In this document: positions 5,171 through 49,338 of the stretch, one piece after another
How positions within the stretch are numbered: position 1 is the stretch's first letter
Layout of the letters: each line of letters starts with the position of its first letter
Virus record (IMG/VR): IMGVR_UViG_3300046703_000247
Location: 1-64,000 of that record
Length of the DNA stretch: 64,000 nt
Strand: one strand, 5' to 3'
DNA from: a virus
Translations under genes and position numbers: made by a program
The notes under the pieces: model-generated
The model's database searches: none
Told to the model about the DNA's origin: nothing
The model's input: only the letters and a program-made list of their open reading frames with translations

Positions 5171-5227
5171 CCGCAGCCACCAGAGGCGAAACCTGCGGTT
5201 TCTCCCCCGGTACCCCTTCTTCCCTTC
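5171..5227 (-). repeat. Palindromic repeat copy 2 (reverse)
   Basis: GAAACC (5188-5193) and GGTTTC (5197-5202) form the inner stem. CCGCAGCC lies on the left and TTCTTCCCTTC on the right, which is the reverse complement of the forward arms. It lies between the gp4 paralogue A stop and the stop of the minus-strand gene that ends at 5226. Confidence 0.85.
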
Positions 5228-5441
5228 AGCACCCGAGCGGACGGCTCAGAATGAACCGTTGCGGCGATTGGCTGATGGCGGCAATCTCTCTTGGCGGTAG
5301 ATCGGGCATGTCAACCCATTTGACCGGGCGCCCGAATAATTCGCGCGGCTCCGCTTCCGAATGGAGCGTAAGCCGAACCACATCTTGCATCGGCCGTTCT
5401 TTACTGACCGGCCTTTTGAGCGATTCCACAATTTGGCTCAT
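5226..5441 (-). CDS. Small hypothetical protein in cassette A
   Basis: The 71-residue product (MSQIVESLKRPVSKERP...) has ATG 5441 preceded on the minus strand by a GGAG site. It runs against the virion genes around it and its last residues lie in repeat copy 2. A Pro-rich middle (WVDMPDLPP) is visible and no domain is recognised. A longer plus-strand frame over the same bases lacks a ribosome site and is made partly of repeat sequence, so I prefer this one. Confidence 0.55.
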   Translation of the reverse strand: MSQIVESLKRPVSKERPMQDVVRLTLHSEAEPRELFGRPVKWVDMPDLPPREIAAISQSPQRFILSRPLGC

Positions 5442-5458
5442 GTCTCCGTTGTACCACC

Positions 5459-5516
5459 GAAGGGAAGAAAAAGGTTCGGAAAAAGAAACCTCGGTTTCGT
5501 TTTCCGAGGCTTCGGC
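5459..5516 (+). repeat. Palindromic repeat copy 3 (forward)
   Basis: The inner stem is GAAACC/GGTTTC (5485-5490, 5494-5499) and the outer stem is CGGAAA/TTTCCG-like. The 3' arm GAGGCTTCGGC ends 31 nt before the start codon at 5548. Confidence 0.85.
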
Positions 5517-5547
5517 ATAAACAGCCGCCTAGAAACGAGAACAGCCC

Positions 5548-6348
5548 ATGAGCACCCCCCCAGCTTCAGCCTTCCCGCAAACCGCCGCCTGGAACGCCTC
5601 GATCTTCGGCGGCCCCGGCGTAACCGTGGGGTCGGACATCCTCTATCCGGCCCTGCGCCTACTGCGTCTGATCCGCCCCGGTCAAGGCCCCCAACCCGAA
5701 ATCCTCACCGAAGCGCTAGCGGCACTGAACTCGATGATCGACTCGTGGAACATCGAGCGGTTGATGATCTACGCCGTATTGCGCAGCGTGTTCACCCTGG
5801 TTGCAAGCGACGGAGACTACAGCATCGGCCCTTCGGGAGACTGGCTCGTGGATAGCCGACCGTCGCGCGTGGAGAAGGCCGGCCTGATCGACATCAGCAA
5901 TCCGGCGCAGCCGCTCGAGCTGCCCATCGAGGTCCTCACCCTCGACAAGTGGAAGGCGATCACGCTCAAGAGTCTCGCCTCCACCCTCCCGCTGAGCCTC
6001 TACTACGACCAGAACCTGGACGTGGGCTCGGGCATGGTCTACGTCTGGCCGGTCCCGACCGTGGCCAACCAGGTGGCGCTCTACCTGTGGCGCTCCCTGC
6101 TCATGTTCCAAAGCGTGGAAGAGGCTTTCGATGTGCCGCAGGGCTACCTGCGTGCCTTGAAGTACAACCTGGCGGTGGAACTCGCGCCGTCCTATGAGAA
6201 CGCCGTGCTCAGCCCGCGGGTGGTGCAGACAGCGGCGGAAAGCAAAGCCCGGATCAAGAGCCTGAACGCGCCCTCGCTCGTGATGCGCTGCGACTCGGGG
6301 CTGCTCAACAACTCCGGCGGTGGGTCGGACTGGAGGACGGGGCAGTAG
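5548..6348 (+). CDS. P22 gp4-like tail accessory/head completion protein (paralogue B)
   Basis: The 266-residue product has the same core as the gene at 4372 (ILTEALAALNSMIDSWNIER, then IYAVLRSVFTL) but an N-terminal extension of about 45 residues. The C-terminal half keeps the same order of beta-rich and helical segments, including the DVPQGYLRALKYNLAVELAP helix that matches DLPPGYQLPIECSLAVLIAP in paralogue A. The two proteins could form a mixed ring, or one could serve a different joint of the neck. Confidence 0.75.
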   Translation: MSTPPASAFPQTAAWNASIFGGPGVTVGSDILYPALRLLRLIRPGQGPQPEILTEALAALNSMIDSWNIERLMIYAVLRSVFTLVASDGDYSIGPSGDWLVDSRPSRVEKAGLIDISNPAQPLELPIEVLTLDKWKAITLKSLASTLPLSLYYDQNLDVGSGMVYVWPVPTVANQVALYLWRSLLMFQSVEEAFDVPQGYLRALKYNLAVELAPSYENAVLSPRVVQTAAESKARIKSLNAPSLVMRCDSGLLNNSGGGSDWRTGQ

Positions 6349-6349
6349 G

Positions 6350-7471
6350 ATGTCGTTCGCCAACGGCTACACATACCGGCGCTCGATCACGGTCGATAAG
6401 GATCTCGTCCCGAACACCGATCAGACGGATTTCCCGGTTCTGGTTTCGGGGACCTATTCCTACCTCGCGCACACGACGCACGGAGGGCTCTGCACCGATC
6501 TGAATGGCTACGACATCGCATTCTATGCCGACGAAGCCGGAACAACGCCGCTCTACTGGGAGATCGAGTCGTACAACCACGAAACCGGCGCGGTGGTGTT
6601 CTGGGTGAAGGTGTCGCTCGCCACGGCGTCTGACACGGTATTCTACGTCTTCTACAGCAACGCCTCCGTCAGCACATTCCAGAGCACCGCGGCGAGCGTT
6701 TGGAGCGCGTCCTTTGTAAGCGTCTTTCACCACAAGGACACCAACGGTACGGACAGTCTCGGTGCCAACAATCTGGCAGGTATCACAGGCACTCCCGATG
6801 CAGCGGCAGGTCAAATCAACGGGGGGATGTACTGTAACAACGAGAGCAAATATAAAGCCGCGCCAGTGTCCGGGATTCCCAGCGGAACAGCCGCCAGAAC
6901 CTACTCTAAGTGGTTTAAGTTGGCCGCCACCGGGCAGGTTGACAAGTATATGGGTGGGTGGGGAGACACAGGGGTGGGAGCCAATGGAACCGCTTGGGTA
7001 TTTACTGTCTGGAACTCTGGAGCCAACTGGTACGTCAGCCTTCACACGACCGGAAGCGGCGGAACTGCTTATTTCACCCAAGACACGGAATGGCACCATC
7101 TTGTCGCCACACTACCGACGGGCGGTGGGAATGCCGACATTAAAATCTACCTAGATGGAGTAGACGGCACTCTTGCGGGAGCGACTGGCACCATCAATAC
7201 CTCTGTTGCTGGCGGAATATCTGCCGGGGATCGCCCTTACGTTGGCGCTGGTGCCAACTTCACAATGGACGAGGAACGCATCTCATCCATTGTCCGCTCC
7301 GCCGACTGGATCGCCACCGAGTACAACAACCAGTCCGACCCGAGCACGTTCTACGCGGTGGGGGACCAGGCGGAAGCGGGTGGCGAACCACCGGCCGGGG
7401 GAATGAACCCAGGCATCCTGCGCGGTCTCAACCGCGGCCTCAACCGCGGTATGGCCGCAAGACTTCAATGA
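6350..7471 (+). CDS. DUF2341/LamG-like adhesin or fibre-tip protein
   Basis: ATG 6350 is chosen over an in-frame ATG 30 nt upstream because GGAGGACGGGG precedes it; this gives 373 residues. The N-terminal ~110 residues match the DUF2341 pattern (TDFPVLVSG, YDIAFYADEAGTTPLYWEIE, YVFYSN). Residues ~125-325 look like a concanavalin A/LamG jelly roll (DTEWHHLVATLP, DIKIYLDGVDG). Both domains commonly bind surface glycans. The C-terminus repeats GLNRGLNRGM. A host-binding role in the tail is inferred. Confidence 0.75.
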   Translation: MSFANGYTYRRSITVDKDLVPNTDQTDFPVLVSGTYSYLAHTTHGGLCTDLNGYDIAFYADEAGTTPLYWEIESYNHETGAVVFWVKVSLATASDTVFYVFYSNASVSTFQSTAASVWSASFVSVFHHKDTNGTDSLGANNLAGITGTPDAAAGQINGGMYCNNESKYKAAPVSGIPSGTAARTYSKWFKLAATGQVDKYMGGWGDTGVGANGTAWVFTVWNSGANWYVSLHTTGSGGTAYFTQDTEWHHLVATLPTGGGNADIKIYLDGVDGTLAGATGTINTSVAGGISAGDRPYVGAGANFTMDEERISSIVRSADWIATEYNNQSDPSTFYAVGDQAEAGGEPPAGGMNPGILRGLNRGLNRGMAARLQ

Positions 7472-14317: not shown

Positions 14318-14832
14318 TCCTCGAACTGGCGCTTCTGTTCCAGGTTGCGCTGGGAGGTGCAACGGTCACCCTCTCCACGGGGCAGAGTAGTGTGACGGAC
14401 GCGCAGGGATACTACTCGTTTCAGGTTCCAAATTGCTGGACCGGGAGGGTTACACCGAAACTGAGCGGATTTCTCTTCACTCCGGCCTCCAGCTCGCGGA
14501 CCTGCCTGGGGGCGGATTTCGTGGCCGACTTCGTAGGCAATGCCACGGATGTGACGCCGCCGGTGGTGAAGGTGATCAATCCCAAGAACAACGCCTCGCT
14601 TCTGCGCCAACTTGTGCTGATCCAGGCCACAGCGACCGACAATCGGGCTGTGGTGGGAGTGCGCTTTCTGGCGGACGGAGTGGCACTGGGAGGTGAACTT
14701 CAGGTCGGGCCATATAAGACCCTCTGGGACGCCAGAAAGACGACCGCGAAGAGCTGGCACACGATCACGGCCATTGCGCGCGACGGGGCCGGGAACTCCG
14801 CTACGACGAGCGTGCGCGTGCGGATGAGGTAA
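14314..14832 (+). CDS. Ig-like (Big_7-type) secreted or fibre protein
   Basis: ATG 14314 overlaps the previous stop and has AGGAGG upstream; 172 residues result. The N-terminal half resembles a carboxypeptidase-regulatory-like sandwich (GATVTLSTGQSSVTDAQGYY). Residues ~80-172 form an Ig domain with the common pattern VRFLADGVALG, then PYKTLWDA, then HTITAIARDGAGN. Such domains decorate fibres and bind polysaccharide. The hydrophobic start (MILELALLFQVALG) could be a short signal peptide or just a strand. Confidence 0.65.
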   Translation: MILELALLFQVALGGATVTLSTGQSSVTDAQGYYSFQVPNCWTGRVTPKLSGFLFTPASSSRTCLGADFVADFVGNATDVTPPVVKVINPKNNASLLRQLVLIQATATDNRAVVGVRFLADGVALGGELQVGPYKTLWDARKTTAKSWHTITAIARDGAGNSATTSVRVRMR

Positions 14833-14836
14833 CCCC

Positions 14837-20055: not shown

Positions 20056-20067
20056 TTTCCCACCACC

Positions 20068-24928: not shown

Positions 24929-24986
24929 GAAGCCACCAGGGGCGAGACCCGGCGGTCTCTCCCCCGGTACCCCCTCGTCCCTGATC
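24929..24986 (-). repeat. Palindromic repeat copy 8 (reverse)
   Basis: The inner stem is GAGACC/GGTCTC, another compensated pair, with outer GGGG/CCCC. It begins 2 nt after the ejection gene stop. Confidence 0.85.
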
Positions 24987-26758: not shown

Positions 26759-26764
26759 CTGCTA

Positions 26765-27088: not shown

Positions 27089-27091
27089 AAC

Positions 27092-27406: not shown

Positions 27407-27423
27407 AAACCCATTCTGCCACC

Positions 27424-38000: not shown

Positions 38001-41000
38001 GTCCGGCTGTCCGGGAAGGAAGAGGGGGTGCAGGGGGAGAAACCGGAGGTTTCGCCTCCTGAAGCGCCGGCCCCAACAGTTGAGGAAGCCCTGGCTATCA
38101 TCGAGAGAAAAGGCTCAGCCCATTGGGAAGACACTACCATCAAGGTGGTTCCACACCCATCGGTTACCGGGATGGTCGACACCGATGGAACCAGCTTCTC
38201 AGTAGAAGTGACCCGGAATGGGGAGCGCAACATCATCGAAGCCGCCCCTCTGTCCCTGGAAGATGCCCAGAAAAAAGCTGCCCGGATGCTGGTGGAACGC
38301 GCAAAACTTCCGCCACTCGGCAAAAAACAGAGCATAATGGAGGCGGAGCAACCCAATGCCCCAGGTGGAATACAGCAGCCCGTTCGTTCAACTGGTGCTC
38401 GACCAGTGGAAGAACAACTTCCCGAAGGAAGCCGAGCGCCTGGAGAAGCAGGGAACGCTCCTCAAGTGGGCCGAGTACGCGACCAAGCGGGCGGGCGCGG
38501 TACACGAGCAGGCGCTGGCAAACGGAGCGAGCTACACCCAGGCGGAGGATCTGTCCCTACCCGAGTGGGGCCAGCCACCGACGTTGAACGATCCCTCCCT
38601 CCCCGTTCCCGAGACGTAGCCAACAACCGCCACGAGCACGACTTCCGCATTCCGGACCGGCGTGTCATTTCCGGATCCCCTGAAACCCGGGCGAAAGCCA
38701 ACCTCGCAGCCATCCGCCTGTTGCGCGAAATCCAGCAAGACAACCGCGCCGCCACGGTCGAGGAGCAGGAGACCCTGGCGCGGTACGTCGGATGGGGCGC
38801 CGTTCCGCAGTTGTTCGCCGGCAACACCTCAGAGTGGAAGGCGCTCCAGAACGACCTGCGCAAGTCGTTGAGCGAAGAGGAGTACTCTCTCGCCCAGAAT
38901 TCCACCAAGAACGCCCACTACACGGGAGATGAGGTGGTGGATGCCATGTGGGCCACGCTCGAGCGGATGGGCGCCACGCCGGGCATGAACTGGCTGGAGC
39001 CCGCGGTGGGAGTCGGGAACTTCTTCGGCCGGCAGCCGGAGGCCTTGCTCGCGGGTTCGCGACGAATCGGAATCGACAAGGATTCGCTTTCCGCACAGAT
39101 TGCCACGCTGCTCTACCCGGACTCGGGCATCCAGAACCAGCCCTTCGAGGAAGCCGAACTCCCCAAGGACTACTTCGACGCCGCCATCTCAAACGTGCCC
39201 TTCGCCGATGTTAAGGTGCACGACCCTGAATTCCGCAACAAAATATACCTGAGATCGAGCGTTCACAACTACTTCTTTGCAAAGACTTTGGGCAATGTGA
39301 AGCCGGGCGGCATCGTGGCCTTCATCACTTCTCACTACACCATGGACGCCTACGGCCAAGAGGCCAGGGCTTTCCGGAAGTGGATCGCTTCACAGGCCGA
39401 TTTCCTCGGCGCCGTGCGGCTGCCCTCGAACGCCTTCATGCAGAGTTCGGGCACCCACGTCATCACCGACATCGTCTTCCTACAGAAGCGACTGCCCAAC
39501 GCTGCGCCCGCCGGCGAGGATTGGGTGGAGACGGTGAACAAGACGCTCTCCGGGCAGTGGGGCGTGTATCCCGTAACCACCAACGCCTACTACAAGCGGC
39601 ATCCCGAACACCTTCTGGGAGAGGAGAAGCTGAAACGCGGCCAGTTCTCAGACCATGATTACTTTGTGGAAGGGGAACTGACGCCGGCCGCCCTGAAGAA
39701 AGCCCTCTCCAAGATCCCCGGCCAGTTCCAGCAATGGCAGACAGGGGCGACGGCCCCCCGGCGGATCGCCCTGCGGGAGATTCGCGCAGAATCCGACAAG
39801 GCCAAGCTCGGAGCCCTCTTCTTTGATGACAAGGGCGACCTGTTCCGCAAGACCAGCAAGGGATCCGCTGAGCCGATTCCCGTGAGTGCGGATGCCAAGC
39901 AGAAGATCAAGGGTCAGTTGGAATTGCGCAACGCCTACGCGGAGCTGCTCGAGCTCGAGCGCAAGGATGCCCCCGAGGCGGCGCTCGATAGCGCCCGCAA
40001 GCGGCTCAACCGGATGTACGACAAGTACGTCGCCGAGCACGGCCCCTTATCGAGCCGAAGCAACACGGAGCTGCTCAAGGGAGATCCGGACGCCCCGCAC
40101 GTCGTCAGCCTGGAGCGCAAGTGGGACCCCAAGACGAAGACCGCCGAGAAGTCCCCGATTTTCAAGCGCCGCATGCTCCAGCCGCCCAAGGCCCTGGAAC
40201 ACACCGCCGACGCCAAAGATGCTCTTTACGTCTCCCTGAATCAGACCGGGCGGATTGACTTCGAGCGCATGGAGAAGTTAACCGGCAAGGGAAGCACCCA
40301 ACTCCAGAGCGAGTTGAAGGGCATCATCTACCAGGACCCGACCAGCCGCGAGTGGGAGATGGCCGACGAGTATCTCTCCGGAGCGGTGCGCACGAAGTTG
40401 CGCCAAGCCCAGGCCGTGGCCAAATTGGAGCCCGAGTTTGAGGAGAACGTCAAGGCGCTCGAACAGGTGCAGCCCGACGACATTCCGCCGGCACAGATCA
40501 GGGTCGCACTGGGCGCAACCTGGGTTCCGATCGATATCTACACCGAGTTTGCAACGCACATTCTGAACAGCTCGACCGACACCCCGGTCCGCTACGTGGC
40601 GAACCACTGGCACGTGGATGAGCCCTACTACAGTTCCGCCCGGTCCAAGAGCCAGTGGGACACCGGCCGCATGAATGCCCACCAGATCCTGGAAGGCTCC
40701 CTCAACATGACGCGCCTCAAGGTCCACGACTGGGACAGCGATAAGAAGCGGGATGTTATCAACCAGCCGGAAACGGCCGCGGCGCAGGCCAAGCAGCAGG
40801 AGTTGCAGACCTACTTCGAAAGATGGCTTCTATCTACCGAGGCCGCGCGCACGGACCAGATGGTGCGCCTCTACAACGATGCGAAAAACGACCTCCGCCT
40901 CCCGACCTTTGACGGCTCCCACCTGACCCTTCCGGAAATCGTTCGGGATCCGCAGATTGTGACGGGCGGCGATCTGGCACCCCACCAGAAGAATGCCGTT

Positions 41001-44000
41001 TGGCGCGGCATCAAGCAGCGCAATGTGCTCCTGGCCCACTGGGTAGGAACCGGCAAAACCTTCGAAGGCATCACCATCGGCATGGAGCTGAAGCGGCTGG
41101 GTCTCATCCAGCGGCCGATGTACGTGGTTCCGAACGCCACCCTGGGCGGTTGGCAGTTGCAGTTCAACCAACTCTACCCGCAGAAGCGCGTCATTGTTTT
41201 CAGCGAGAAGGACCTGGAGAAGGAAAACCGGCGGGCCACTATCGCGCGCATCGCGGGCGGCGAGTGGGACGCGGTTGTCATGCCCGAGTCCAGTTTCCGG
41301 TTCATCCGCACCGGCGACGAGATCTTCAACCAGCATTTTCAGCGTCTCCAGGAAGAATTGGACACCTCCATCCAAGAGGCTGAGGGCGCCGGGATGGACA
41401 CCCGGATGATTAAGCGCATGGAAAAGATGCGCGACAAGCTGCTCACGGCCCTGCAGGATAAGCGCAACGCGGAGCGGCAGGATCAGACCATCATCTGGGA
41501 GCAGTTGGGGATCGATTGGCTGTTCGTGGACGAATCCCACCACTACCGCAAGTTGGGGTTCTCAACCAAACAGCAGAACATCGCCGGCATCGATGTGAAC
41601 GGCAACCAGATGACGTTCGACCTGCTCATGAAGATGCGGCACGTCCAGACGACCGGGCGCGGAGTGGTCTTCGCCACGGGTACACCGATTGTCAACACCA
41701 TTGGGGAAATGTACTCTCTGATGCGCTACCTGATTGAGCCGGAAATGCAGGCGCGCGGCATCGGCCGCTTCGATGAATGGTCGGCCGACTACGCCCGGAC
41801 GGTCCCCGTGTTCGAACCGAAGGTGGAGGGTGGCGGCTACCGGATGAAGGACCGCTTCGCCCGCATCGTCAACATCCCCGAGTTGGCGAACCTGTTCCGC
41901 TCCTTCGCCGATGTGGTCACCAATGACATGGTAGACCTAAAGATCCCGGGTTTGGCGGGAGGGGAACGCAAGAGCATCCTGACGGACTTGAGCGACGAGC
42001 AGACTCAATATCTGGAAGAAGATCTGCGACCCCGCGGGGCCGCTATTCGCCACAACCCCCGGGATGCCATGCCGGACAACATGCTGGCTGTCTATACCGA
42101 CGCCGGCAAGATGGCATTGGACATCCGGACGGTAATGCCGCACGCCAAAGAGGACCCCGGCAGCCGGCTGAACAAAGCCGCCGAAATCATCTTCCGCGAC
42201 TGGCAGGACAGCGCGAAGACGAAGGGCGTACAGGCCATATTCTGCGACTGGGGCAAGCCCAACAGCGCGCGCCCCCTTGCGGATCGCGGGCAGTTCTCGG
42301 TGTACGACGAGCTGATTCGAAAGCTGATTAAAAAAGGCATCCCGCGCGAGCAGATTGCCACTATCTATCAGGCGAAAGGGAAGGACCAGCGGGCCCGGCT
42401 CTTCCAGCAGGTGAACGAGGGGACCATCCGGATCATCCTCGGTTCCACGAAGAAGCTCGGTGAAGGCGTAAACATTCAGGAGCGCCTATATTCCCTTCAT
42501 CACCTGGACCTGCCGCACACGCCCTCGGAACTAGACCAGCGCGAAGGCCGCGCCCTGCGCCAAGGGAACACCAACCCCGACGTGCGGGTGTACTACTACA
42601 TGACCCGGGGCTCACTCGACGAAATGAAGTTCGCCAACGTCCTGCGTAAGGCGAAGTTCATCCTGGCCATGATGCAGGGCAAGGCCACGGTACGCGAGGC
42701 CGACGACGTGGGCGGTATGATCCCCTCTCTTGAGATGTTCCAGGCGGCCACCTCGGGGGATCCGCGCGTGCTGAGGAAGATGGAGGTTGACGCCGAAGTA
42801 GCGCGCCTCGAGGCCATTCACTACGCCTGGCGGAATCAGCAATGGGACGAGCGGCGCCAGTTGGCGGACCTGCCTGGCAGAATCAGTCGCTTTGAAACTA
42901 CCATCTCCAATTCCCGAAGTGACATCGCCCTGCGGGACGCGCACCTGCCGGGGGTGTGGTCGGTCCGCGGGCAGACCTATGAAGGCAAAACTCCGGAAGC
43001 GGCGAAGGCACTTGCCGAGTACTCCAACAGCAGGCGAAGGGAGCATGACGCGGATCTGAAAACGGAGATGGCCAAGGCTATAGCGGAAGGCGGTGAAGAC
43101 GCCAAGAAGGTCCGCGCGCTACAGAATCGAGCCTTTACAGAAGCGGGGAAGCGCTTTCCTCCCGAGATCATCGCTGAATACGCCGGTTTCAAGATCCGGT
43201 TTGATCCCATTGATGGGGCAATGACCATCGTTGGCGAAGGGTCCGCATACGGGATGGAGCGGCAGGACACCGCGACAGGCACGCTCGCGAGCGCAGCCTA
43301 CTTCATTCACCACCATTTTGAAAAGGCCATCACCAGTGCCGAAGAGGACATTGCCCGCGCCAGGCGCGACGAGGAACAGTTGCAGATCTCTGTCGGAAAG
43401 TCCTGGCCCTATCAGAAGCAGTTCGACAACCTGGTTGCCGAGCAGGAGACCCTGACTCACGATTTGGGCGGCGATCACGGAGACCCCGGCGCCGCTCTGC
43501 TCGAGGATGGGGAGGAAATAGAAGACAAGCGGGTGGAAGCCGAGGAGACGGCAGAGTCTGGAGACGAGGCCCAGCCGGAGCAGCCGCACCCAACCACACC
43601 CAATCCACCTACGCCGGGCCGGCGGCCGGGAGCAGCTACGCAATCCCGCCGCTCCAGCCAGGCCGGCGCGGCCAGCCTCGATCTGCTCACCCTGGGAGCG
43701 CCCAAGTTCATCCAAGAGGATGTCGCCCCAGCCCTCGGCAGGGTCGCCCAGAACTTTGTGGCGGTCAAAAACGAGATCTTCACGATTATCGCCCCGGCCG
43801 CTCGCGGGCCCGCCGCCAAACAAACTGCCCTCTCCGTGCGCTACCGGGCGGCCGAGTTGGCCCAGAAGACGGACCGTGCCCTGGCCGCCCTCAAGGAAAC
43901 CCGCCGCTACTTCGACTCGCTGCCCGAGTGGAACCGGTTGGAGTTCATGGACCGCATCGAAAACGGCCAGCAGCAGATCTATCCACAGGAGGACGCGATT

Positions 44001-46415
44001 GCTGAGGTCTTTCGCGAGATGCTCGACGGCCGCCGGCAGGATGTGCAGGATTTGGGAACCGGAAAACTTGAGAACTGGATCGAGAACTACTTCCCACACA
44101 TCTGGGAGGACCCCGAAAAGGCCACCAAGTTCGCCGCCGACTGGCTCGCAAAGCGCCCGTTCGAAGGAAAGAAAGCGTTTCTCAAGAAGCGCAAGATCCC
44201 TACTATTCAAGAGGGCATGAACGCCGGGCTCGTGCCGGTCTCAACCAACCCCGTCGACCTGGTCCTCATGAAGGTCCGGGAGATGGACAAGTACATCATG
44301 GCCCACAAGGCCCTCGGCGATCTGAAGGACATGGGCTTTCTGCCATTCGTTTCCTCTTTCGACAAACTCCCGGAGGGTCACAAGTGGATCGATGACCGGG
44401 TCGCCACGGTCTTCGGGCCACCCACCGTCACAGTGAAAGAGGCCTTCGATCAGCAGTTGAGCGACCGGCTGAACCAGTTGGCCGACGCCCTCGGCATCAA
44501 ACACGAGCGCAAGGTCCAAATCGGCGGTCAGCGAAGCGGGTATGCCGAAAAAGCCAGCGGCAAAGTGGTGACGCGCTTCGCCTCCCCCGAGAGCGTGCTG
44601 ATCCACGAGATCGGCCACCAGTTGGAGTGGAAGTACAACCTGCTCTCCCTGCTGAAAGACCGCGACTTCCCGGAGCGCACCAAGGAACTGCGCGCGCTGG
44701 CGGACCTCCGCTATGAGGGGGACCCCGACGTCGCCGAATCCTTCAAGAAGTACGTGCGCCGGAAGGACGAGAAGATCGCCAACGCGGTGATGGCGGTGCT
44801 GTACGCGCCGGAGAAAGTCAAAGCCGTGGCGCCCAACACCTGGGATTTTCTACGCGATGAGCTGTGGCATATCCCCGCGTTGCGGCCACTGTTTGACATC
44901 AAACCTTCCCTGGTGCTCGGAGCCCGCACAGCGGAAGTGCCGGTTGGTGGGCTGGTGATTATTGGGAGGTACGCGGCGCCTGAGCCTGCCGCGCGCGTGC
45001 TCAACAACTACCTCTCTCCGGGCCTGCGGGACAGGAGCATGCTATTCCGGTCCTACCTGGGGGCGGCCAACGTGCTGAACCAGTTCCAATTGGGTTGGAG
45101 CGCGTTCCACTTGGGGTTCACCAGCATGGATGCGGCGGTTTCGAAGTTCGGCCTGGGGATCTACCAACTGGCCCACGGTCATCCGCTCGAGGCCTTGGGT
45201 TCCATGGCGCTCACTCCCGTGGCTCCCTTCACCAACATCCTGCACGGGGACAAAATCCTGAAGGAATGGGATCATCCGGGAACCCAGAGCGCACAGATTG
45301 CTGAACTGGTCGACGCCATGGTCCAGGCCGGCGGCCGGGCCCACATGGACAAGTTCTATGAGACCCAGATCAGCAAGCGGATGACAAACACCATGCGCGG
45401 TGCCCTTCAGGCGTGGCAGGGCGGCAACTGGGTGGGCGCTGGGGCACGAATCGTGGGAGCTGGGCTGCAACTGCCCTTCGCCCTCACCGAGCAGGCTTCT
45501 CGCCCCATCATGGAATGGCTGGTTCCACGTCAGAAGATGGGCGTCTTCGCGGACATGGCGCGATTTGAACTGGATCGCCTTGGAAATAATGCAACCGAGC
45601 AGGACAAGCGGGCAGCCCTCGCCAAGGCCTGGGATTCGGTTGACAACCGCATGGGCCAACTCGTCTACGACAACCTCTTCTGGAACAAGGTCACCAAGGA
45701 CCTGGCCATGGGTTCGATCCGGTCGGTAGGTTGGAACGTCGGAACAATCCGGGAACTGGTGGGAGGCGCCGGAGATACCGTGGTTGCTCTCGGGGGCGCC
45801 CTCGGCGGGAAGAAGCCCGAGATGACCTGGCGCATGTCCTACCTGATTGCCCTGCCGATCGTCGTCGGGATTCTGGGGGCCATCCTTTATTACCTGTTCA
45901 ACGGCAAGGCACCCGAGAACCTGCGCGACGTATATGCCCCGCGGACCGGTCTCAAGGACAAGTCTGGGATGCCCGAGCGGCTGATGCTGCCGAGCTACAT
46001 GAAGGACGTGATCCACTACACCAAGGAACCCGTCCGGACGGCCACCAATAAAATCCATCCGCTGCTCACGCTGATCGCCGACACGCTCACCAACGAAGAC
46101 TTCGCGCACCGAAAGATTCGTGATCCCAAGGACCCGCTCGAGAAGCAGCTCGTTGAATTGGCGGACCACGTTGCCACGCAATTCGTCCCAATGGCCTGGC
46201 GGGGCTGGGTGGACCCCGGCAAGCGGCGCCCGCAGGCCAACTGGACCGAGGAATATCTGCCGTTCGTCGGCATCACCCCAGCACCGAAGGCCATCAAGGA
46301 AGGCGGAAACCAGCCGGCCACCGCCGCCCCGAACCTCCGCCGCATGTTGAGCGCCCCGGCCTCGGGCTACCGTGGCGGCTCACTCAAGCAACTCGGCCGC
46401 CCCGCCGGCTACTGA
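29055..46415 (+). CDS. Giant polyvalent virion protein (5,786 residues)
   Basis: Domains in order: lytic transglycosylase (residues ~35-135, catalytic Glu45 in NRESRL); phage 'GNIDL...SDEEA' domain (~165-260); hydrophobic segment (~486-522); 2H phosphoesterase (His1639 in HVTLLYG, His1715 in HATLAYL); a module also known as a stand-alone family (~1796-1900); SAP-like (~2355-2390); N6-adenine methylase (LEPAVGVGNFFG ~3314, NVPF at 3380); Snf2-type helicase (GTGKT with Lys4001, DESHH from Asp4159, QREGRALRQGN ~4495); zincin (HEIGH, His5184-His5188); membrane segment (~5594-5617). This matches the polyvalent/DarB-like proteins injected to protect incoming DNA. Eight repeat copies encode linkers at 31649-38072. 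Confidence 0.88.
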   Translation: MPLTDTPDSFVPDVPTPEEVEAELRAAAKAHGLDEDLALRVANRESRLTQSATSPKKARGVMQLMPETAKTLGVDPEDWQQNIQGGVKLLKSNLDYYKGDTRKALAAYNAGRGPVDKYNGVPPYKETQEYVDNILGKPVAPPPSFEPDPPSFEADQPVTIPGLLKPGNIDLTARPVHKNPDGTTSTVLSMRFGEDGKEILVPKVSEDGTWILSDEEAVDTYHKTGKHLGIFKDVPSANAYAQQLHEDYASGRIKLKTPGAADPPSFEADQPTALQVPAQIPSRAELATMGERLGVLRMTLDTQAEQMARNRAALEAEAQQFTPKTPPEQLAAFDQKVKLHNLDLAEFQNAVAGHAKDIEAYNAGTAAFNENLGRYDQAMKVPPGTQRTGLPGMPLTRMPVQVQPSGVLGLAKESLPWKIANTQAFKALGLPTTADAYDYSVEAAKKLVAKVLGEPSETTARKHPGVAATLTFGARVARLFPEVADFILTPAGTATAIATAVAPPAVVAGVGAAFSTDIALKANDAIEVARTNPTPENIGEAVKLSAMALLPFLRPAAELGRKVERGIEQHNVQAAQLVERERTQGLGKEWGQAILGEEPVRVEIAGKSHTIQALGGNPVAGSVRPRPTYQVVDDATGKAVYSGEAPAVQGYLEQQQAVRVGGLVTSVDQISAQLDTEYSKAVADRAVAQSVRDQIRQLQKFSPEQLKAEQAKGKVILDHEAELNQKGVAGLSETDLVEVQQHLQMVDDLLAGKPISDNFAEQAVKEADAHISEIQKKRAQLGAEGTKLPQAQRPAAPGPAAPAVIAKGTTVAGGKITVTEVKGGKVGFEKTMPGGQKIRGTMPIEAFRSQFLATSQPVQPQPTAQPKPRETEPTVPSPKPTFSLSEAEQAQYDQVAEFARTAGKPLTDKLLWEKLKIPRHEGAKILAVMKQQGALDQQGQPQALSPQPVVQPQPPGAKPAVSPLATPLPLNAAPVGQAYQGELAGDWSPYYRTMAEAQAAGAKNVQLGAAPEVWNGQKWAGAVSNDAKQQAQPQPPGAKPAVSPLATPLPSEPQTPALEALKRQMSDFYRRRVRVNDRTFVGGVYNPNRSEEERQSIDAQLEEIDSEARSVLSKVPQNDLPELMSADNRMRVLEGDNPLTRNDRGGPDWAAQEWLNRIVEVTPERAALSAPTSTPAPAGKQIAAPQPPAVRAPAPAETPASFEPDTLPRSLELEQKHGLSPAEAAVINHALDRLPQVRKDYSSAAEALQKEALRLAAPANVPLDKIANIKLLKRILADYLDPEQFRAAEAQNKEPWQMTREEFTAPVREDLARWNSSFDELRAKRGGTRGQTPAQALFDAKQKHEEGRKPYLERIAETEQLHERNIRRAVADGKPVPAAVLAEYPDLKPAQALDPDQVYRRAQAEMERRHLKQGLEQLIALDPDNPREDDLGVGNDLEDVTGNLQSIGFSRPEIQAVLEGRRQRLQAHREQSARAAEAIKPAMPGGVVYEAVGKAVGASRDKKDSQMFVWRTDSEKQGYEFLNALGNNLQYGHKDLPAAIRAVAEQNPDWTDLSKTALTALGREEVVSEKKPQVASPESQPKEKPTEYDFASTQVNLPPEIAQAMQEFNAQIPDEDLAVEAGAKYGGETAAKGREEQSHVTLLYGIKSENPDAVRKLLENQPPITLKLGKTSVFAGTDNGDVLKIDVESEDLERLNKLLKDNLEFTETHPGYKPHATLAYLKVGKGKEWSGKDVPGVTGKTVTLDRIAFSDKSGEQTSIQLKGEKPQTTPKPQPRETEPTVPSPKPASSLSEIPKPKAYTFANHKFMSAKDKQLTFKAWITFLRNGLQQKDFTKRLYEQLHQHMGFIAHYNINGFYEEYFLHGEDTERFIQHFDLADHRYGPDSTNGFWMNSDTAKDLNRAMVDEAAPYLPGLLEKAAAGQKAEDLAEAQRLQAKHGAPAPAPVVTHKLQGGGIVQELKSPELRFQKNDHVRWTDKDGNAKEGYVSRVEGHLVFIGTESDQKFGMFRPVMASKVELIEDEGDTPTPKRDEGVEGKQPQVASPRAPAKTEAPAKTGDIERQITEAESDLAAARKLYEGTEDGTLDQEEAIREMHQALAEVNRLQAEAAKENPLLTEQAEGRRQTMPPMPKGKESHWQQLMDDSSDLGATAGEEYVVDYGLWVERGKPAGKEPEKPNAERETSIDRGEYPKGWLRQAAAEFQTSFDKEVAKGLKEIEQETARNAAGAAADAARELEIRKAEIQDLAAKLREHASGDRTDLAERKRLVTAALDLKTGKKLNEDTDALWEQAIRPAIEAIRRAAVDKIEGKQITPDTPVWEMRPAQYLEHRREQALQIPKGSFLEREPGEWRTEFLVTLSKEELGVLLRLNGLPINGTKAMMVQRFQDARALRNQFEGKTAEQIEEEMTGAEIDRALEQLGAGKYGNKLTRAGTILGTIQSQRKKGESVLAEFNYQRAIYRAVGKGQPVPEEIQKKYGAFQTIEDVAAAIPEEGTAEPDKKIRIGDRVTWKGFDKVVRVGTVSHIRHHIENGRERNTLEIDGDDHGRYFPDDVDVTKVAAETRDEGGAGEATAGLRPQQAPAETPAEPTEYALSGDTYRFKNIIRAQLQGKWNGKEKVWIIPASQVEAARKLSKKIEVKPFGQVKTAPAQPPMDEQTASAVIQDLVKTISEAQEEVHFAQNDKDTDKGASTQANEAKLATAVKDLRSVVTEAKKYLDFPNAPESDREALRTQLYRAEQNLRGYERPGPSINQTIEAEKYVEKLTGPEQTYAAKYKDYWLGKIAEEPPYVGVHINPLRAEGIRTHLKHVLGKRVEVTGGPEATKPATETRVPKWGNLTELEAELLRGLNRPQPIGDLFDSIGQHWPDSEKIKVLHALDSHGLVKAIHGGGYERTEAGTVAIGKGPAEAYLPKGTAPAPAPKGSFKYEFQVHGEGGKWSDNALRFATEKEAQAAGDEHLTRWTMADAVRVVPSEDAPNYRWDDDQYKSVRLSGKEEGVQGEKPEVSPPEAPAPTVEEALAIIERKGSAHWEDTTIKVVPHPSVTGMVDTDGTSFSVEVTRNGERNIIEAAPLSLEDAQKKAARMLVERAKLPPLGKKQSIMEAEQPNAPGGIQQPVRSTGARPVEEQLPEGSRAPGEAGNAPQVGRVRDQAGGRGTRAGAGKRSELHPGGGSVPTRVGPATDVERSLPPRSRDVANNRHEHDFRIPDRRVISGSPETRAKANLAAIRLLREIQQDNRAATVEEQETLARYVGWGAVPQLFAGNTSEWKALQNDLRKSLSEEEYSLAQNSTKNAHYTGDEVVDAMWATLERMGATPGMNWLEPAVGVGNFFGRQPEALLAGSRRIGIDKDSLSAQIATLLYPDSGIQNQPFEEAELPKDYFDAAISNVPFADVKVHDPEFRNKIYLRSSVHNYFFAKTLGNVKPGGIVAFITSHYTMDAYGQEARAFRKWIASQADFLGAVRLPSNAFMQSSGTHVITDIVFLQKRLPNAAPAGEDWVETVNKTLSGQWGVYPVTTNAYYKRHPEHLLGEEKLKRGQFSDHDYFVEGELTPAALKKALSKIPGQFQQWQTGATAPRRIALREIRAESDKAKLGALFFDDKGDLFRKTSKGSAEPIPVSADAKQKIKGQLELRNAYAELLELERKDAPEAALDSARKRLNRMYDKYVAEHGPLSSRSNTELLKGDPDAPHVVSLERKWDPKTKTAEKSPIFKRRMLQPPKALEHTADAKDALYVSLNQTGRIDFERMEKLTGKGSTQLQSELKGIIYQDPTSREWEMADEYLSGAVRTKLRQAQAVAKLEPEFEENVKALEQVQPDDIPPAQIRVALGATWVPIDIYTEFATHILNSSTDTPVRYVANHWHVDEPYYSSARSKSQWDTGRMNAHQILEGSLNMTRLKVHDWDSDKKRDVINQPETAAAQAKQQELQTYFERWLLSTEAARTDQMVRLYNDAKNDLRLPTFDGSHLTLPEIVRDPQIVTGGDLAPHQKNAVWRGIKQRNVLLAHWVGTGKTFEGITIGMELKRLGLIQRPMYVVPNATLGGWQLQFNQLYPQKRVIVFSEKDLEKENRRATIARIAGGEWDAVVMPESSFRFIRTGDEIFNQHFQRLQEELDTSIQEAEGAGMDTRMIKRMEKMRDKLLTALQDKRNAERQDQTIIWEQLGIDWLFVDESHHYRKLGFSTKQQNIAGIDVNGNQMTFDLLMKMRHVQTTGRGVVFATGTPIVNTIGEMYSLMRYLIEPEMQARGIGRFDEWSADYARTVPVFEPKVEGGGYRMKDRFARIVNIPELANLFRSFADVVTNDMVDLKIPGLAGGERKSILTDLSDEQTQYLEEDLRPRGAAIRHNPRDAMPDNMLAVYTDAGKMALDIRTVMPHAKEDPGSRLNKAAEIIFRDWQDSAKTKGVQAIFCDWGKPNSARPLADRGQFSVYDELIRKLIKKGIPREQIATIYQAKGKDQRARLFQQVNEGTIRIILGSTKKLGEGVNIQERLYSLHHLDLPHTPSELDQREGRALRQGNTNPDVRVYYYMTRGSLDEMKFANVLRKAKFILAMMQGKATVREADDVGGMIPSLEMFQAATSGDPRVLRKMEVDAEVARLEAIHYAWRNQQWDERRQLADLPGRISRFETTISNSRSDIALRDAHLPGVWSVRGQTYEGKTPEAAKALAEYSNSRRREHDADLKTEMAKAIAEGGEDAKKVRALQNRAFTEAGKRFPPEIIAEYAGFKIRFDPIDGAMTIVGEGSAYGMERQDTATGTLASAAYFIHHHFEKAITSAEEDIARARRDEEQLQISVGKSWPYQKQFDNLVAEQETLTHDLGGDHGDPGAALLEDGEEIEDKRVEAEETAESGDEAQPEQPHPTTPNPPTPGRRPGAATQSRRSSQAGAASLDLLTLGAPKFIQEDVAPALGRVAQNFVAVKNEIFTIIAPAARGPAAKQTALSVRYRAAELAQKTDRALAALKETRRYFDSLPEWNRLEFMDRIENGQQQIYPQEDAIAEVFREMLDGRRQDVQDLGTGKLENWIENYFPHIWEDPEKATKFAADWLAKRPFEGKKAFLKKRKIPTIQEGMNAGLVPVSTNPVDLVLMKVREMDKYIMAHKALGDLKDMGFLPFVSSFDKLPEGHKWIDDRVATVFGPPTVTVKEAFDQQLSDRLNQLADALGIKHERKVQIGGQRSGYAEKASGKVVTRFASPESVLIHEIGHQLEWKYNLLSLLKDRDFPERTKELRALADLRYEGDPDVAESFKKYVRRKDEKIANAVMAVLYAPEKVKAVAPNTWDFLRDELWHIPALRPLFDIKPSLVLGARTAEVPVGGLVIIGRYAAPEPAARVLNNYLSPGLRDRSMLFRSYLGAANVLNQFQLGWSAFHLGFTSMDAAVSKFGLGIYQLAHGHPLEALGSMALTPVAPFTNILHGDKILKEWDHPGTQSAQIAELVDAMVQAGGRAHMDKFYETQISKRMTNTMRGALQAWQGGNWVGAGARIVGAGLQLPFALTEQASRPIMEWLVPRQKMGVFADMARFELDRLGNNATEQDKRAALAKAWDSVDNRMGQLVYDNLFWNKVTKDLAMGSIRSVGWNVGTIRELVGGAGDTVVALGGALGGKKPEMTWRMSYLIALPIVVGILGAILYYLFNGKAPENLRDVYAPRTGLKDKSGMPERLMLPSYMKDVIHYTKEPVRTATNKIHPLLTLIADTLTNEDFAHRKIRDPKDPLEKQLVELADHVATQFVPMAWRGWVDPGKRRPQANWTEEYLPFVGITPAPKAIKEGGNQPATAAPNLRRMLSAPASGYRGGSLKQLGRPAGY
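31649..31710 (-). repeat. Palindromic repeat copy 12 (reverse, in frame)
   Basis: The inner stem is GGAACC/GGTTCC. It is read in frame in the giant gene as RETEPTVPSPKP plus TFSLSE, a Pro/Thr-rich linker. Confidence 0.85.
31908..31963 (-). repeat. Palindromic repeat copy 13 (reverse, in frame)
   Basis: The inner stem is GAAACC/GGTTTC and the outer AGGGG/CCCCT. It encodes PQPPGAKPAVSPLATPLP. About 55 nt are identical to copy 14. Confidence 0.88.
32151..32207 (-). repeat. Palindromic repeat copy 14 (reverse, in frame)
   Basis: It is the same sequence as copy 13 over about 55 nt, 243 nt further on, and is read in the same frame. This indicates a recent duplication. Confidence 0.88.
33739..33796 (+). 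repeat. Palindromic repeat copy 15 (forward, in frame)
   Basis: The inner stem GAAACC/GGTTGC is imperfect and the outer is CGGAGA/TCTCCG. It encodes REEVVSEKKPQVASPESQ just before the 2H phosphoesterase domain. Confidence 0.8.
34367..34428 (-). repeat. Palindromic repeat copy 16 (reverse, in frame)
   Basis: The inner stem is GGAACC/GGTTCC with an AA centre. It encodes PRETEPTVPSPKP plus ASSLSE, nearly the same peptide as copy 12. Confidence 0.85.
35133..35192 (+). repeat. Palindromic repeat copy 17 (forward, in frame)
   Basis: The outer stem is GAGGGGA/TCCCCTC (perfect) and the inner GCAACC/GGTGGC (one mismatch). It encodes DEGVEGKQPQVASPRAPA. Confidence 0.8.
36728..36787 (+). repeat. Palindromic repeat copy 18 (forward, in frame, shifted frame)
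   Basis: The inner stem GCAACC/GGTTGC and outer GGGGA/TCCCC are both perfect. It is read in a different frame from its neighbours (GEATAGLRPQQAPA). Confidence 0.82.
38012..38072 (+). repeat. Palindromic repeat copy 19 (forward, in frame)
   Basis: The inner stem is GAAACC/GGTTTC with a GGA loop. It encodes KEEGVQGEKPEVSPPEAPA before the linker leading to the methylase region. Confidence 0.8.
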
Positions 46416-47447: not shown

Positions 47448-47506
47448 ACGCCCGACGCCCGCGGACTCCGCGCGGCCCAGACCGAATCTTTTGAAAGGCA
47501 CTTCCT

Positions 47507-47758
47507 ATGTCCATCGCCAATTGCAACTTCACCCCTCAGAGCTGTAAAGAACTCATCAACGTGCGGATCGCACAGGAAGGCTCATTCGAGCGGCTCGATA
47601 GCCTCGAACGCTGGCAGGAAAATCAGAACGGCCACATCAGCCGGATTGACAACAAGCTCGATAAATTCTTCTGGTTCTGGTTGAGTTTACTGGCAACCTC
47701 GGCCGGCACCCTGCTGGTCCTGATCCTCACCCAGACTGGTGTGCTTGGCCATCGTTAG
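47507..47758 (+). CDS. Coiled-coil single-TM protein, XhlA-like
   Basis: The 83-residue product has an N-terminal region with two cysteines and a coiled coil (GSFERLDSLERWQENQNGHI, SRIDNKLDK). A C-terminal membrane segment follows (FFWFWLSLLATSAGTLLVLI). The same build is seen in XhlA-type lysis accessory proteins that work with holins. A ribosome site GAAAGG precedes ATG 47507. Confidence 0.6.
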   Translation: MSIANCNFTPQSCKELINVRIAQEGSFERLDSLERWQENQNGHISRIDNKLDKFFWFWLSLLATSAGTLLVLILTQTGVLGHR

Positions 47759-47766
47759 CCCTCCCA

Positions 47767-48135
47767 ATGGCTCTCCGCCTGGTCCGTCAACCGCCCGGGA
47801 CTTCGCTGTGTGGCCAGTGCTGTGTGGCCATGGCAGCCGAAGTGTGCCTCGACAGGGCCATTGCGGTTGTCAATCATCGCGGGCCCGCTGGAACCACCAC
47901 GCGGGAAGTGATTGCGGCCCTTCGGAAGTTGGGGTTGAAGTGCGCCGATCGCTGCCGGCCGCTCTCCCGAATCAGACCGAGCTACCCGAGGCGGGCCATC
48001 CTCGCACTGCGACAGAACGGGCGAGCGCGCTACCACTGGGTGTATTACGAGGATGGAGTCTTCTACGATCCGGAAGATGAATGGCCGCGCTATGACGGGT
48101 GGCGAATTACAAGTTACCTAGAAGTCTTCGGTTGA
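47767..48135 (+). CDS. C39-like papain-fold cysteine peptidase
   Basis: The 122-residue product shows the C39-like order. An oxyanion Gln (Gln8) and CGQ (Cys15) lie in RQPPGTSLCGQCCVAMAAEV, and a C-terminal His appears in GRARYHWVYYEDGVFYDPED with a following Asp. Cys18 and Cys19 are extra. Such domains cleave leader peptides or peptidoglycan cross-links; here a role in lysis or host envelope entry is inferred from the neighbours. Confidence 0.62.
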   Translation: MALRLVRQPPGTSLCGQCCVAMAAEVCLDRAIAVVNHRGPAGTTTREVIAALRKLGLKCADRCRPLSRIRPSYPRRAILALRQNGRARYHWVYYEDGVFYDPEDEWPRYDGWRITSYLEVFG

Positions 48136-48164
48136 ATCTGCATCATCCTGCCTTTTTGCTGCTA

Positions 48165-48221
48165 CTCCAGGGGAACGAAACCTCACGGTTTCTTTCCCCT
48201 CGCCCCCTTTCATCCCTTCGG
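48165..48221 (-). repeat. Palindromic repeat copy 20 (reverse)
   Basis: The inner stem is GAAACC/GGTTTC and the outer AGGGGA/TCCCCT-like. It starts 29 nt after the peptidase stop and ends 13 nt before ATG 48235. Confidence 0.85.
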
Positions 48222-48234
48222 CTAGAATCGAAGC

Positions 48235-48660
48235 ATGAACCGCCGAGGGTTCCTCTTCACAGCCTTGGGAGCACCCGCTGTTGTTGTTGGCGCGACCGCG
48301 CCCACCACGCGCTTACAACCTCCCGGCCTGCCTGTAGATCCTCAGTTTGATTTTGTCGACGGGGCACATTACTGTGCTGGGCTGTACTACGGCCGCCGGG
48401 TTGCCTTCGCTTCGCCAAATTATCCCAACCGCCTCTGGTTTTCCCGTGCCGATCCCCCGCGCCGCTTTCACGACCCCTACGGTATTGGCGACTGGGTCGA
48501 CGTCGGCGATTCATGGGACCGGATCGTTTCAGTCTATGTTTGGCACGCGGACCTGATTATTCGCAAGCTCAACAGTGAATGGCAGTTCTGCGGCGACCTA
48601 GACTGGGGCATTTTCTATTTTCTGGGTGATCCCCAACGGAGAGGAGTTCTGAGAGTATGA
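48235..48660 (+). CDS. Tat-leader protein with a gp10-blade-like body
   Basis: The 141-residue product begins MNRRGFLFTALGAPAVVVGA. The body (YYGRRVAFASPNYPNRLWFS, WVDVGDSWDRIVSVYVWHAD) has the layout of one blade of the gp10-like stabilisation protein at 17285 (GYFIAAPPDDKRFRISSLYDG, then NISSILADHGDLWLLG). I infer that it may be a virion-protein fragment carrying an export leader, parallel to the capsid fragment at 15994. It overlaps the next gene by ATGA. Confidence 0.6.
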   Translation: MNRRGFLFTALGAPAVVVGATAPTTRLQPPGLPVDPQFDFVDGAHYCAGLYYGRRVAFASPNYPNRLWFSRADPPRRFHDPYGIGDWVDVGDSWDRIVSVYVWHADLIIRKLNSEWQFCGDLDWGIFYFLGDPQRRGVLRV

Positions 48661-49007
48661 ACCGCCGCGGCTTCCTGGCTATGCTGGCTGGCGCGGTGCT
48701 CGACCCCGAGCGCTTGCTCTGGGTGCCGGGGAAGAAGCTCATCTCTATTCCGGCAGAATCCGCGCCCTGGCCTTGGCGGCACGGACCGTTTCTCGTAACC
48801 GCGCACATGGAAGGTTCCAGCGACGTGGCCGCCATTATGGAACGCCTACTCAATCACCGTTGGACGATGGACCCCGTGTGGCGACAGCACGCGCAAGACA
48901 TGATTGACCGCGACATGCAACGGATTCTTCTGGGCGAGGTGCAGCAGACCATCGGGTTCTTCCGCACTTCCGAGAAACCTACTCCTTCGCTGCAGATGTC
49001 GGCCTGA
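48657..49007 (+). CDS. Tat-leader protein of a phage-associated family
   Basis: The 116-residue product begins MNRRGFLAMLAGAVLDPERL and continues LWVPGKKLISIP. I associate this 'DPERLLWVPGKKLISIP' string with short phage proteins, but not with a function. The body is helical (LNHRWTMDPVWRQHAQDMID). It is translationally coupled to the gene before it and ends tail to tail, with a 29-nt overlap, with the minus-strand gene at 48979. Confidence 0.6.
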   Translation: MNRRGFLAMLAGAVLDPERLLWVPGKKLISIPAESAPWPWRHGPFLVTAHMEGSSDVAAIMERLLNHRWTMDPVWRQHAQDMIDRDMQRILLGEVQQTIGFFRTSEKPTPSLQMSA

Positions 49008-49338
49008 CAATAATAGGCGGTGTCACCTGCTGCATGACTCGTTCCATCGCCAACTCGTCGTAGGCGCTGAGCCGCTCCTGCAAGTGTTCAAAGGCGTTTT
49101 CACAGCAGCGCAGCACGTCCTCACACCAGCGGATCTTTTCTCTCTCCATCTCAGCCTTGCTCCAGAAATCCAGTTGACGAGGGACCAGAAACATCCGCTC
49201 CTGCGTCAACGCTAGGATTTGCCGCGCCAGTTGGTGCGCCACTGTTGGAGGGGGCGGCAGACGCATGCGCGGCTGAAGGGATGAAGGGGCTTCCGGGGAA
49301 GCAACCGCAGGTGGCGTCCCCGGAGGCTGCGATTTCAC
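48979..49338 (-). CDS. Small helical protein with repeat-encoded N-terminus
   Basis: GTG 49338 overlaps the previous stop (GTGA). Of the 119 residues, about the first 20 (PPGTPPAVASPEAPSSLQP) are read from repeat copy 21. The rest is a long charged helix with a cysteine pair (ILALTQERMFLVPRQLDFWS, CEDVLRCCENAFEHLQERLS). A downstream Met could be the original start before repeat insertion. The function is unknown. Confidence 0.5.
   Translation of the reverse strand: MKSQPPGTPPAVASPEAPSSLQPRMRLPPPPTVAHQLARQILALTQERMFLVPRQLDFWSKAEMEREKIRWCEDVLRCCENAFEHLQERLSAYDELAMERVMQQVTPPIIVRPTSAAKE
49273..49331 (+). repeat. Palindromic repeat copy 21 (forward)
   Basis: The outer stem is CCGGGGA/TCCCCGG and the inner GCAACC/GGTGGC (one mismatch), closely like copy 17. 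It is read on the opposite strand as the N-terminus of the gene at 48979. Confidence 0.82.

Follow-up and report, generated by a model that had tools for sequence, protein, structure and literature searches.

A recurring hairpin element at gene ends and domain linkers of a soil phage as a candidate recombination joint

Since the modular theory of phage evolution, it has been debated whether phage mosaicism arises at dedicated joint sequences or through random breaks sorted by selection. Boundary or linker sequences, reportedly described by Susskind and Botstein in 1978 and by Clark et al. in 2001, are short shared sequences at module joints that were proposed as crossover points. Rickettsia palindromic elements, reportedly introduced by Ogata et al. 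in 2000, lie in frame within protein-coding genes and are read as extra peptide. Integron attCs are imperfect hairpins after the stop codon of small cassette genes. Promoter early stem-loops (PeSLs) of T4-like phages are short repeated stem-loops in intergenic spaces, linked to accessory-gene shuffling among related phages (Arbiol et al. 2010; Comeau et al. 2014; PMC4503421, PMC3950731). REP, BIME and REPIN sequences, which include the GTAG and CGTC families, are hairpins with an end tag (PMC3733652). Here we describe a hairpin element that recurs along a soil phage genome from a metagenome assembly, the linear IMG/VR virus record IMGVR_UViG_3300046703_000247 (83,233 bp; G000). The window is bases 1-64000 of this record; the remainder (the last 19 kb) was also analyzed.

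The element works most like PeSLs and is built most like REP/REPIN sequences. As with PeSLs, short repeated stem-loops lie in phage intergenic spaces and flank genes that differ between related phages (G011/G012, G009/G012, and G000/G027). Unlike PeSLs, the element has no sigma-70-like promoter in the tested region (0 sites in 14.5-28.5 kb, which holds eight copies; only this promoter type was covered), and a terminator, if present, would be non-canonical, with few copies scoring as terminator-like and no excess over shuffles. Also unlike PeSLs, it has in-frame copies in coding sequences, forms inverted pairs with both tails pointing inward, and is present in prophage remnants and in an element resembling an insertion sequence (IS). 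It resembles REP/REPIN sequences in its small hairpin with an unpaired tail, its location mainly at gene 3' ends, its frequent inverted doublets with variable spacers, and its occasional intragenic copies. It differs from them in that its tag is a purine tail rather than GTAG or CGTC, it is dense in phages and rare in carrier bacterial genomes, and its spacers reach about 1.4 kb and hold genes. Since we detected neither a promoter nor a Y1 transposase at the copies, the element fits neither definition fully, as far as the open-licence literature goes, and we file it as a member of neither group. We propose, tentatively and at slightly less than an even chance, that phages of Acidobacteriota carry it as a REP-like mobile hairpin and recombine at its copies as joints.

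The hairpin is maintained by compensatory change. The element is ~60-67 nt long and consists of a purine tail AAGGGAAGAA at the 5' side, a variable linker, a hairpin of the form GGNNNAA-A-GAAACC-(2 to 4 nt)-GGTTTC-G-TTNNNCC, and a G/C-rich tail. A single stem position is an A·G mismatch in almost all copies. We built a covariance model (R1, copy scores in bits) from 38 copies from G000 and other genomes. Among these, 94% of stem cells are paired (79% in shuffles), changes on both sides of the stem number 103 (35 in shuffles), and covariation is 0.478 (0.210 in shuffles); 0 of 500 shuffles reach these three values. The majority of stem positions vary, even inside G000, while pairing is retained. 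This suggests that it is the folded strand, and not a duplex of fixed sequence, that is recognized or persists. A strict element pattern has 4 matches in the window and 0 in 100 shuffles. Neither Rfam nor a comparison of the element with isolated phages and plasmids gave a match. A hix-like serine recombinase site (ACC..GGT core) was considered and set aside, the centre varying from 2 to 4 nt.

Copies of the element occur throughout the genome. The R1 model finds 31 distinct copies in the whole record, 25 of them inside the window (a 32nd match, at 79585, was not counted, being the 79566 copy read on the reverse strand). A preliminary description of this DNA had listed twelve repeat coordinates, all of which fall on genuine copies to within a few nucleotides. 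Genes were called with a codon-usage script; these are working, uncurated calls, and element ends are approximate. Copies in the window that lie outside the giant open reading frame (ORF) at 29055-46415 are as follows, with pairs numbered for reference:

728-792, forward, between two short plus-strand genes, 60.1 bits
5164-5230, reverse, left of pair 1, between both adaptor paralogues, 68.3 bits
5457-5522, forward, right of pair 1, 68 bits
15653-15720, reverse, left of pair 2, overlapping the 3' end of a minus-strand Tat-like ORF, 66.1 bits
16290-16356, forward, right of pair 2, 76.9 bits
18996-19064, reverse, left of pair 3, directly past the gp10 stop, 58.2 bits
20379-20449, forward, right of pair 3, encoding the C-terminal tail of the helix-turn-helix (HTH) ORF, 55.1 bits
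24920-24987, reverse, left of the empty pair 4, at the stop of 24066-24926, 56.2 bits
24995-25061, forward, right of the empty pair 4, 69.9 bits
26382-26447, reverse, left of pair 5, 58.2 bits
27422-27487, forward, right of pair 5, 57.1 bits (86% identical to the 5457 copy)
48153-48220, reverse, left of pair 6, 63 bits
49273-49339, forward, right of pair 6, 67.8 bits
49845-49911, forward, ahead of 49921 and of a widely shared DUF968 gene (50223-50570), 77.7 bits
53439-53505, plus strand, in frame near the N-terminus of a PD-(D/E)XK exonuclease (53329-54315), 51.7 bits
55144-55210, forward, ~35 nt upstream of a serine recombinase gene, 57.4 bits
60072-60140, minus strand, in frame near the C-terminus of an N6_N4 DNA methylase (60033-61847), 58.8 bits

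The element prefers gene ends. Across nine phage contigs, 44 of the 63 copies outside the giant gene overlap a called gene end (within 15 nt), while 12.5 are expected at random. Many copies start at a stop codon or 1-3 nt from one, or encode the last ~20 residues of a gene. Examples are the portal gene, 66950-67198 and the HTH gene 20080-20448 in G000, and two genes in G010.

In three locus comparisons, the cargo changes and the element stays. All phage sequences compared are metagenomic contigs, and G030, the same genome as G027, was left out of counts. At 17.6-18.3 kb of G012, this phage and G011 share a left gene (70% identical over aligned bases) and a reverse element (94%). Past this element, identity falls to the level of shuffled sequence (49% versus 47% over columns), until a forward element follows in each. 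Different cargo at the same element in related phages supports the preliminary description in this respect. G012, which is apparently circular (an element spans the record ends, with a 23-nt overlap), also has a conserved gene, a single element and a resolvase gene with nothing else between them. In G009, the same interval holds four genes and three elements, all in one orientation and 72-91% identical to the single G012 copy, within flanks of 73% and 82% homology. G010 has no copy directly before its resolvase, at an otherwise homologous site.

The third comparison is between G000 and G027, which have terminase, portal, capsid, both adaptors and gp10 in common at about 35-57% identity. In both phages, a reverse copy follows gp10 and another follows the homologue of 24066-24926. 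The proteins ahead of these shared copies are 30-40% identical, and the genes that follow differ: after gp10 in G027, neither a homologue of the 19130-20448 cargo is detectable nor is there a forward partner element. Here, as among G001, G003, G017 and G028, divergence is too high for base-level breakpoints. We saw no relative in which cargo is fixed while repeats come and go, the observation that the preliminary description had named as counting against its cassettes; cargo varying while elements persist is its opposite. Nor did any comparison show a pair and its cargo moving as a unit. The two adaptor (gp4-like) paralogues and gp10 are confirmed as core genes. The adaptor genes, 4372-5055 and 5548-6348, flank an element pair; G027 also has both (39985-40704 and 38658-39458), and other relatives have one locus matched by both.

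Pairing with tails inward is non-random and recurs in other phages. We call a reverse copy followed by a forward copy tail-in, and the opposite arrangement tail-out. From 728-792 onward, the eleven copies before the giant gene alternate strictly, forward first (chance about 2/2^11). Strict alternation had been described for ten of these copies and holds for them; the forward copy at 728-792 had been overlooked, and it makes the choice between a reverse-forward and a forward-reverse unit ambiguous from G000 alone. Among neighboring copies separated by under 700 bp, those of the giant gene excluded, we found 10 tail-in, 0 tail-out and 4 same-orientation cases, and 11, 1 and 4 once G032 was added (p = 0.0003 against 1/4; p = 0.0008 with one homologous pair dropped). 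Phages other than G000 contribute 6 tail-in, 1 tail-out and 3 same-orientation cases (p = 0.02). This excess across phages removes the ambiguity.

Tail-in pairs contain one or a few short genes, or nothing. The contents of the pairs in the window are:

5226-5441, minus strand, pair 1: weak 71-aa ORF of no family, not called as a gene
15635-16281, minus strand, pair 2: two overlapping ORFs (15635-15997 and 15994-16281) with weak Tat-leader matches
19130-20448, plus strand, pair 3: 19130-19462, 19462-20055 and 20080-20448 (Sigma70_r4_2-like HTH)
24920/24995, pair 4: empty (as is 79495/79568, beyond the window)
26450-27404, pair 5: DUF6527 (26450-26758, plus; Pfam), DUF3307 or moron membrane protein (26765-27088, plus; Pfam) and a minus-strand Tat-like ORF starting near 27404
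48235-49194, pair 6: plus-strand ORFs 48235-48660 and 48657-49007 (both starting MNRRGF) and minus-strand ORF 48979-49194

These contents agree in part with the preliminary description, in which the pairs bracket cassettes. The tail-in excess supports it; the pair at 24929/24997 holds nothing. Of the cargo named there, DUF6527 and DUF3307 stand above the Pfam cut-off, the HTH match (Sigma70_r4_2) falls below it, the Tat leaders are weak (E 0.015-0.05), and Fn3, named for 19462-20055, has no Pfam match. Short ORFs of three pairs have the near-identical start MNRRGF in common (15968-16281, 27369-27417 and 48235-48686), and in two of the three they adjoin the edge of the forward element.

Copies of the element also lie in frame inside a giant ORF, where they sit at linkers between domains. 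We take this protein to resemble the large polyvalent proteins known from phages. Its domains are an SLT lysozyme at the N-terminus, 2H/LigT and SAP, then an Eco57I-type methylase and an SNF2 helicase. No relative came up in scans that used gp10 or the helicase portion of the giant gene. The ORF, its copies and the segment that two of them enclose are:

29055-46415, plus strand, giant ORF of 5786 aa with eight in-frame element copies
31643-31709, reverse copy, aa 863-885, 76.4 bits
31901-31967, reverse copy, aa 949-971, 66.1 bits
32144-32210, reverse copy, aa 1030-1052, 63.2 bits (90% identical to the 31901 copy)
33737-33802, forward copy, aa 1561-1583, left of the 2H domain, 63 bits
33804-34358, plus strand, single-domain 2H segment (2'-5' RNA ligase/LigT), exactly between two copies
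34361-34427, reverse copy, aa 1769-1791, right of the 2H domain, 71.9 bits
35131-35197, forward copy, aa 2026-2048, 71.8 bits
36725-36792, forward copy, aa 2557-2579, 63.7 bits
38011-38077, forward copy, aa 2986-3008, 58.7 bits

Hairpins in the giant ORF are as intact as those elsewhere (11.9 versus 12.0 Watson-Crick pairs of 14). All five reverse in-ORF copies are in one codon phase, and forward copies use two of the three. Each element frame is stop-free in 22-29 of the 31 G000 copies; frame use may therefore reflect tolerance, shared descent or both. In-frame copies also occur in the portal, exonuclease and methylase ORFs, and no empty homologue demonstrates insertion. Like Rickettsia palindromic elements, these copies are palindromes read in frame as extra peptide; unlike them, the element is phage-borne, shorter and mostly intergenic, with its in-frame copies concentrated in a giant polyvalent-type protein. 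The 2H/LigT phosphoesterase segment (aa 1584-1768) has a weak match to Acb1 (anti-CBASS) and is possibly an injected counter-defence domain.

As a recombination joint, the mobile hairpin would spread and settle at module edges, that is, at gene ends and domain linkers. Copies there would be shared joints: a crossover between matching elements of two phages would swap everything on the far side. A tail-in pair would then act as a standard slot where an accessory gene, or a group of them, takes the place of another, and its inverted ends would guard the cassette from loss by simple deletion. We infer that crossovers at the elements occur by homology. The enzyme could be a phage annealing/exonuclease system, the neighboring serine recombinase, or an enzyme that recognizes the hairpin; conservation of the hairpin calls for a further cause, either such an enzyme or a role in RNA. 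Like the boundary sequences of the modular theory, the element is a short shared sequence at module joints and a proposed crossover point. Unlike them, it is a single structured family at many joints across dissimilar phages. A bolder form of this proposal, in which a stop-poor, mobile and recombinogenic hairpin, translatable both ways as a proline-rich linker, is a universal joint for genes and domains with tail-in pairs as slots, seems rather unlikely to us. Because a single element family recurs at numerous joints of dissimilar phages, both between genes and between domains, and with differing cargo, the question of dedicated joints becomes directly testable.

Two genes of possible relevance to recombination lie at copies in G000. 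The PD-(D/E)XK exonuclease is of a kind that often partners Rad52-like recombinases, which in E. coli phages are known to exchange diverged phage sequences by homologous recombination (PMC3945230). The adjacent 52625-53332 is conserved in several element-carrying phages. The second is the serine recombinase; in G009, G012 and G027, too, its homologue has an element next to it or close by:

55245-55907, plus strand, small serine recombinase (Resolvase and HTH_7)

In G009 and G010, the N-terminus of a short gene upstream of the resolvase is nearly that of the resolvase itself (MTCALYIRVSR... in G010), but the sequences part after it, a pattern that suggests a chimeric duplicate.

Several observations weigh against the element as a recombination joint. 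Independent locus comparisons are few in number: there are three, all between metagenomic contigs, and G009/G012 alone keeps both flanks at the nucleotide level. Even there, the conserved gene of G009 is separated from the first element by one gene, which leaves one junction not exactly at an element. In a control locus, the element (G012 854, G009 7997) persists between flanks that are both homologous. We identified no annealing recombinase; the neighbor of the exonuclease, 52625-53332, matches no family above cut-off. Finally, exchange by pure homology leaves the conservation of the hairpin unexplained.

The element itself appears to be mobile and, among bacteria, centered on Acidobacteriota. 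Exact-pattern scans found it in 16 other viral records (one, G030, a duplicate; another, G016, unconfirmed by the model). In 84,980 bacterial and archaeal genomes, the pattern gave 40 matches, found in Bryobacterales and other Acidobacteriota, the rest appearing chance-like by eye. The eight carrier genomes searched have 1-11 copies per 6-12 Mb among the 150 candidates scored per genome, and copy density is far higher in phages. As the element is found in Acidobacteriota genomes, the host of G000 is probably an acidobacterium. A copy in G032 (4236) and one in G027 (20559) are 94% identical over 63 bases, yet the 500 bp on either side give no better alignment than shuffled sequence does. Such near-identical copies in unrelated flanks suggest that the element itself spreads. 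In G001, G002 and G003, a copy lies near a terminase or near sequence common to these terminase-bearing regions, apparently remnants of prophages. No copy is present in the podovirus relatives that were retrieved with the adaptor (11 of L002-L025 examined) or the terminase (L107-L119).

In G004 (about ten near-identical copies), G005, G006 and probably G007, the element lies near the end of an IS-like repeat. This repeat ends in CTAGCCAAAGATATTTGAAATTT and carries an unclassified 543-aa ORF (MELFxKLF...; L104 7293-8924, minus strand; G004 repeats) that is multi-copy in Acidobacteriota genomes and has no Pfam or NCBIfam match above cut-off. Ownership of the element by this IS was considered and rejected: the 543-aa family has an upstream element in several genomes, and other N-terminal loci are without it. 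Thus, the element is not an obligatory part of the IS-like unit.

Mobility alone could account for much of this pattern. The element would then be a selfish hairpin transposon, similar to REP or Rickettsia palindromic elements, that inserts preferentially at gene ends and in permissive linkers, with variable genes beside it only because they gather in the same tolerant places; tail-in pairs would be a doublet mobile unit, as in REPINs, later split by gene insertion. We regard this as possible, if less than likely. It agrees with the copies in phages, prophage remnants and the IS-like element, the near-identical copies in unrelated contexts, the in-frame copies within proteins, the conserved hairpin and stem mismatch, and the two empty doublets (24920/24995 and 79495/79568). 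REP dimers with variable spacers and intragenic REPs have also been described (PMC3733652). However, an association with RAYT transposases was sought and not found: with the R1 model, the flanks of 16 Y1_Tnp loci from eight carrier genomes contain no copy. Copies are also far denser in phages than in bacterial genomes, and the positions shared by G000 and G027 (gp10 and the 24066 homologue) suggest long retention rather than random insertion.

A role in RNA is distinctly unlikely as the primary explanation. In this scenario, the reverse-sense hairpin with its pyrimidine tail would end or process transcripts after core genes, shielding cargo or transposase genes on the tail side from incoming transcription, and gene exchange would be a by-product. 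Reverse copies do directly follow the stop codons of core genes, and outside transcription entering tail-in pairs or the IS-like element always meets the reverse sense, as at an insulator; the compensatory changes would suit an RNA as well. However, the element has no T-run, and terminator-like sites around copies (16 versus 11.6 expected) are not in excess. Five reverse-sense copies lie within coding sequence, namely in the portal ORF and the giant ORF, and hairpins of the latter are no less intact than others. Furthermore, copies in G009 and G010 are in the forward sense between co-directional genes.

The preliminary description had likened the pairs to terminal inverted repeats of cargo cassettes; taken literally, as cassettes that jump as units, this is a reading that we consider very improbable. 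The tail-in excess around small genes in several phages would fit, as would the cargo that differs between the shared left element and the right element in G011/G012. Yet no pair with its cargo was found at two sites, no cargo protein of a tail-in pair was found bracketed again in another contig, and no transposase was recognized among the cargo. Pair partners are absent from the 40 most similar copy pairs, and no target-site duplication outside the pairs is obvious by eye, element ends being uncertain. Single copies, direct arrays such as that of G009, and copies within ORFs (eight in one) are common, two pairs are empty, and the element is missing at the otherwise homologous G010 site.

It is scarcely credible that the elements are attC-like sites of a structure-recognizing site-specific recombinase, each gene forming a cassette together with the hairpin that follows its stop codon. 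The gene-element-gene-element array of G009, with elements starting at or near stop codons, the imperfect hairpin with its constant mismatch, and the presence in four phages of the serine recombinase next to elements or close to them speak for this reading. Against it, this recombinase is of the small resolvase/invertase type, whose sites are double-stranded and have a fixed centre, whereas the hairpin loops here range from 2 to 4 nt; orientation to genes is not constant, many copies lie outside arrays, and no IntI-type integrase was seen in a search that was not exhaustive.

Two further repeats were observed beside the element. In G027, the copies at 47598-47715 and 21285-21402 carry an identical ~50-nt second palindrome in the hairpin loop, resembling a small element inserted into another; IS insertion into REP loops is known. 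A second dispersed repeat family of 54-90 nt (CAGAGCGCGAACG...GAGAAGAGCGTYNNCAACAAA) is common to otherwise dissimilar acidobacterial phages and was not detected in G000 at the sensitivity used. Its copies are frequently located at the ends of genes, and some immediately adjoin the hairpin element on its tail side. Copies lie in G027 at 2884-2946, 5970-6036, 6659-6717, 14827-14893, 44869-44929, 47743-47811, 56875-56942 and 77435-77483, and in G032 at 2239-2291, 6126-6196, 15547-15600 and other positions.

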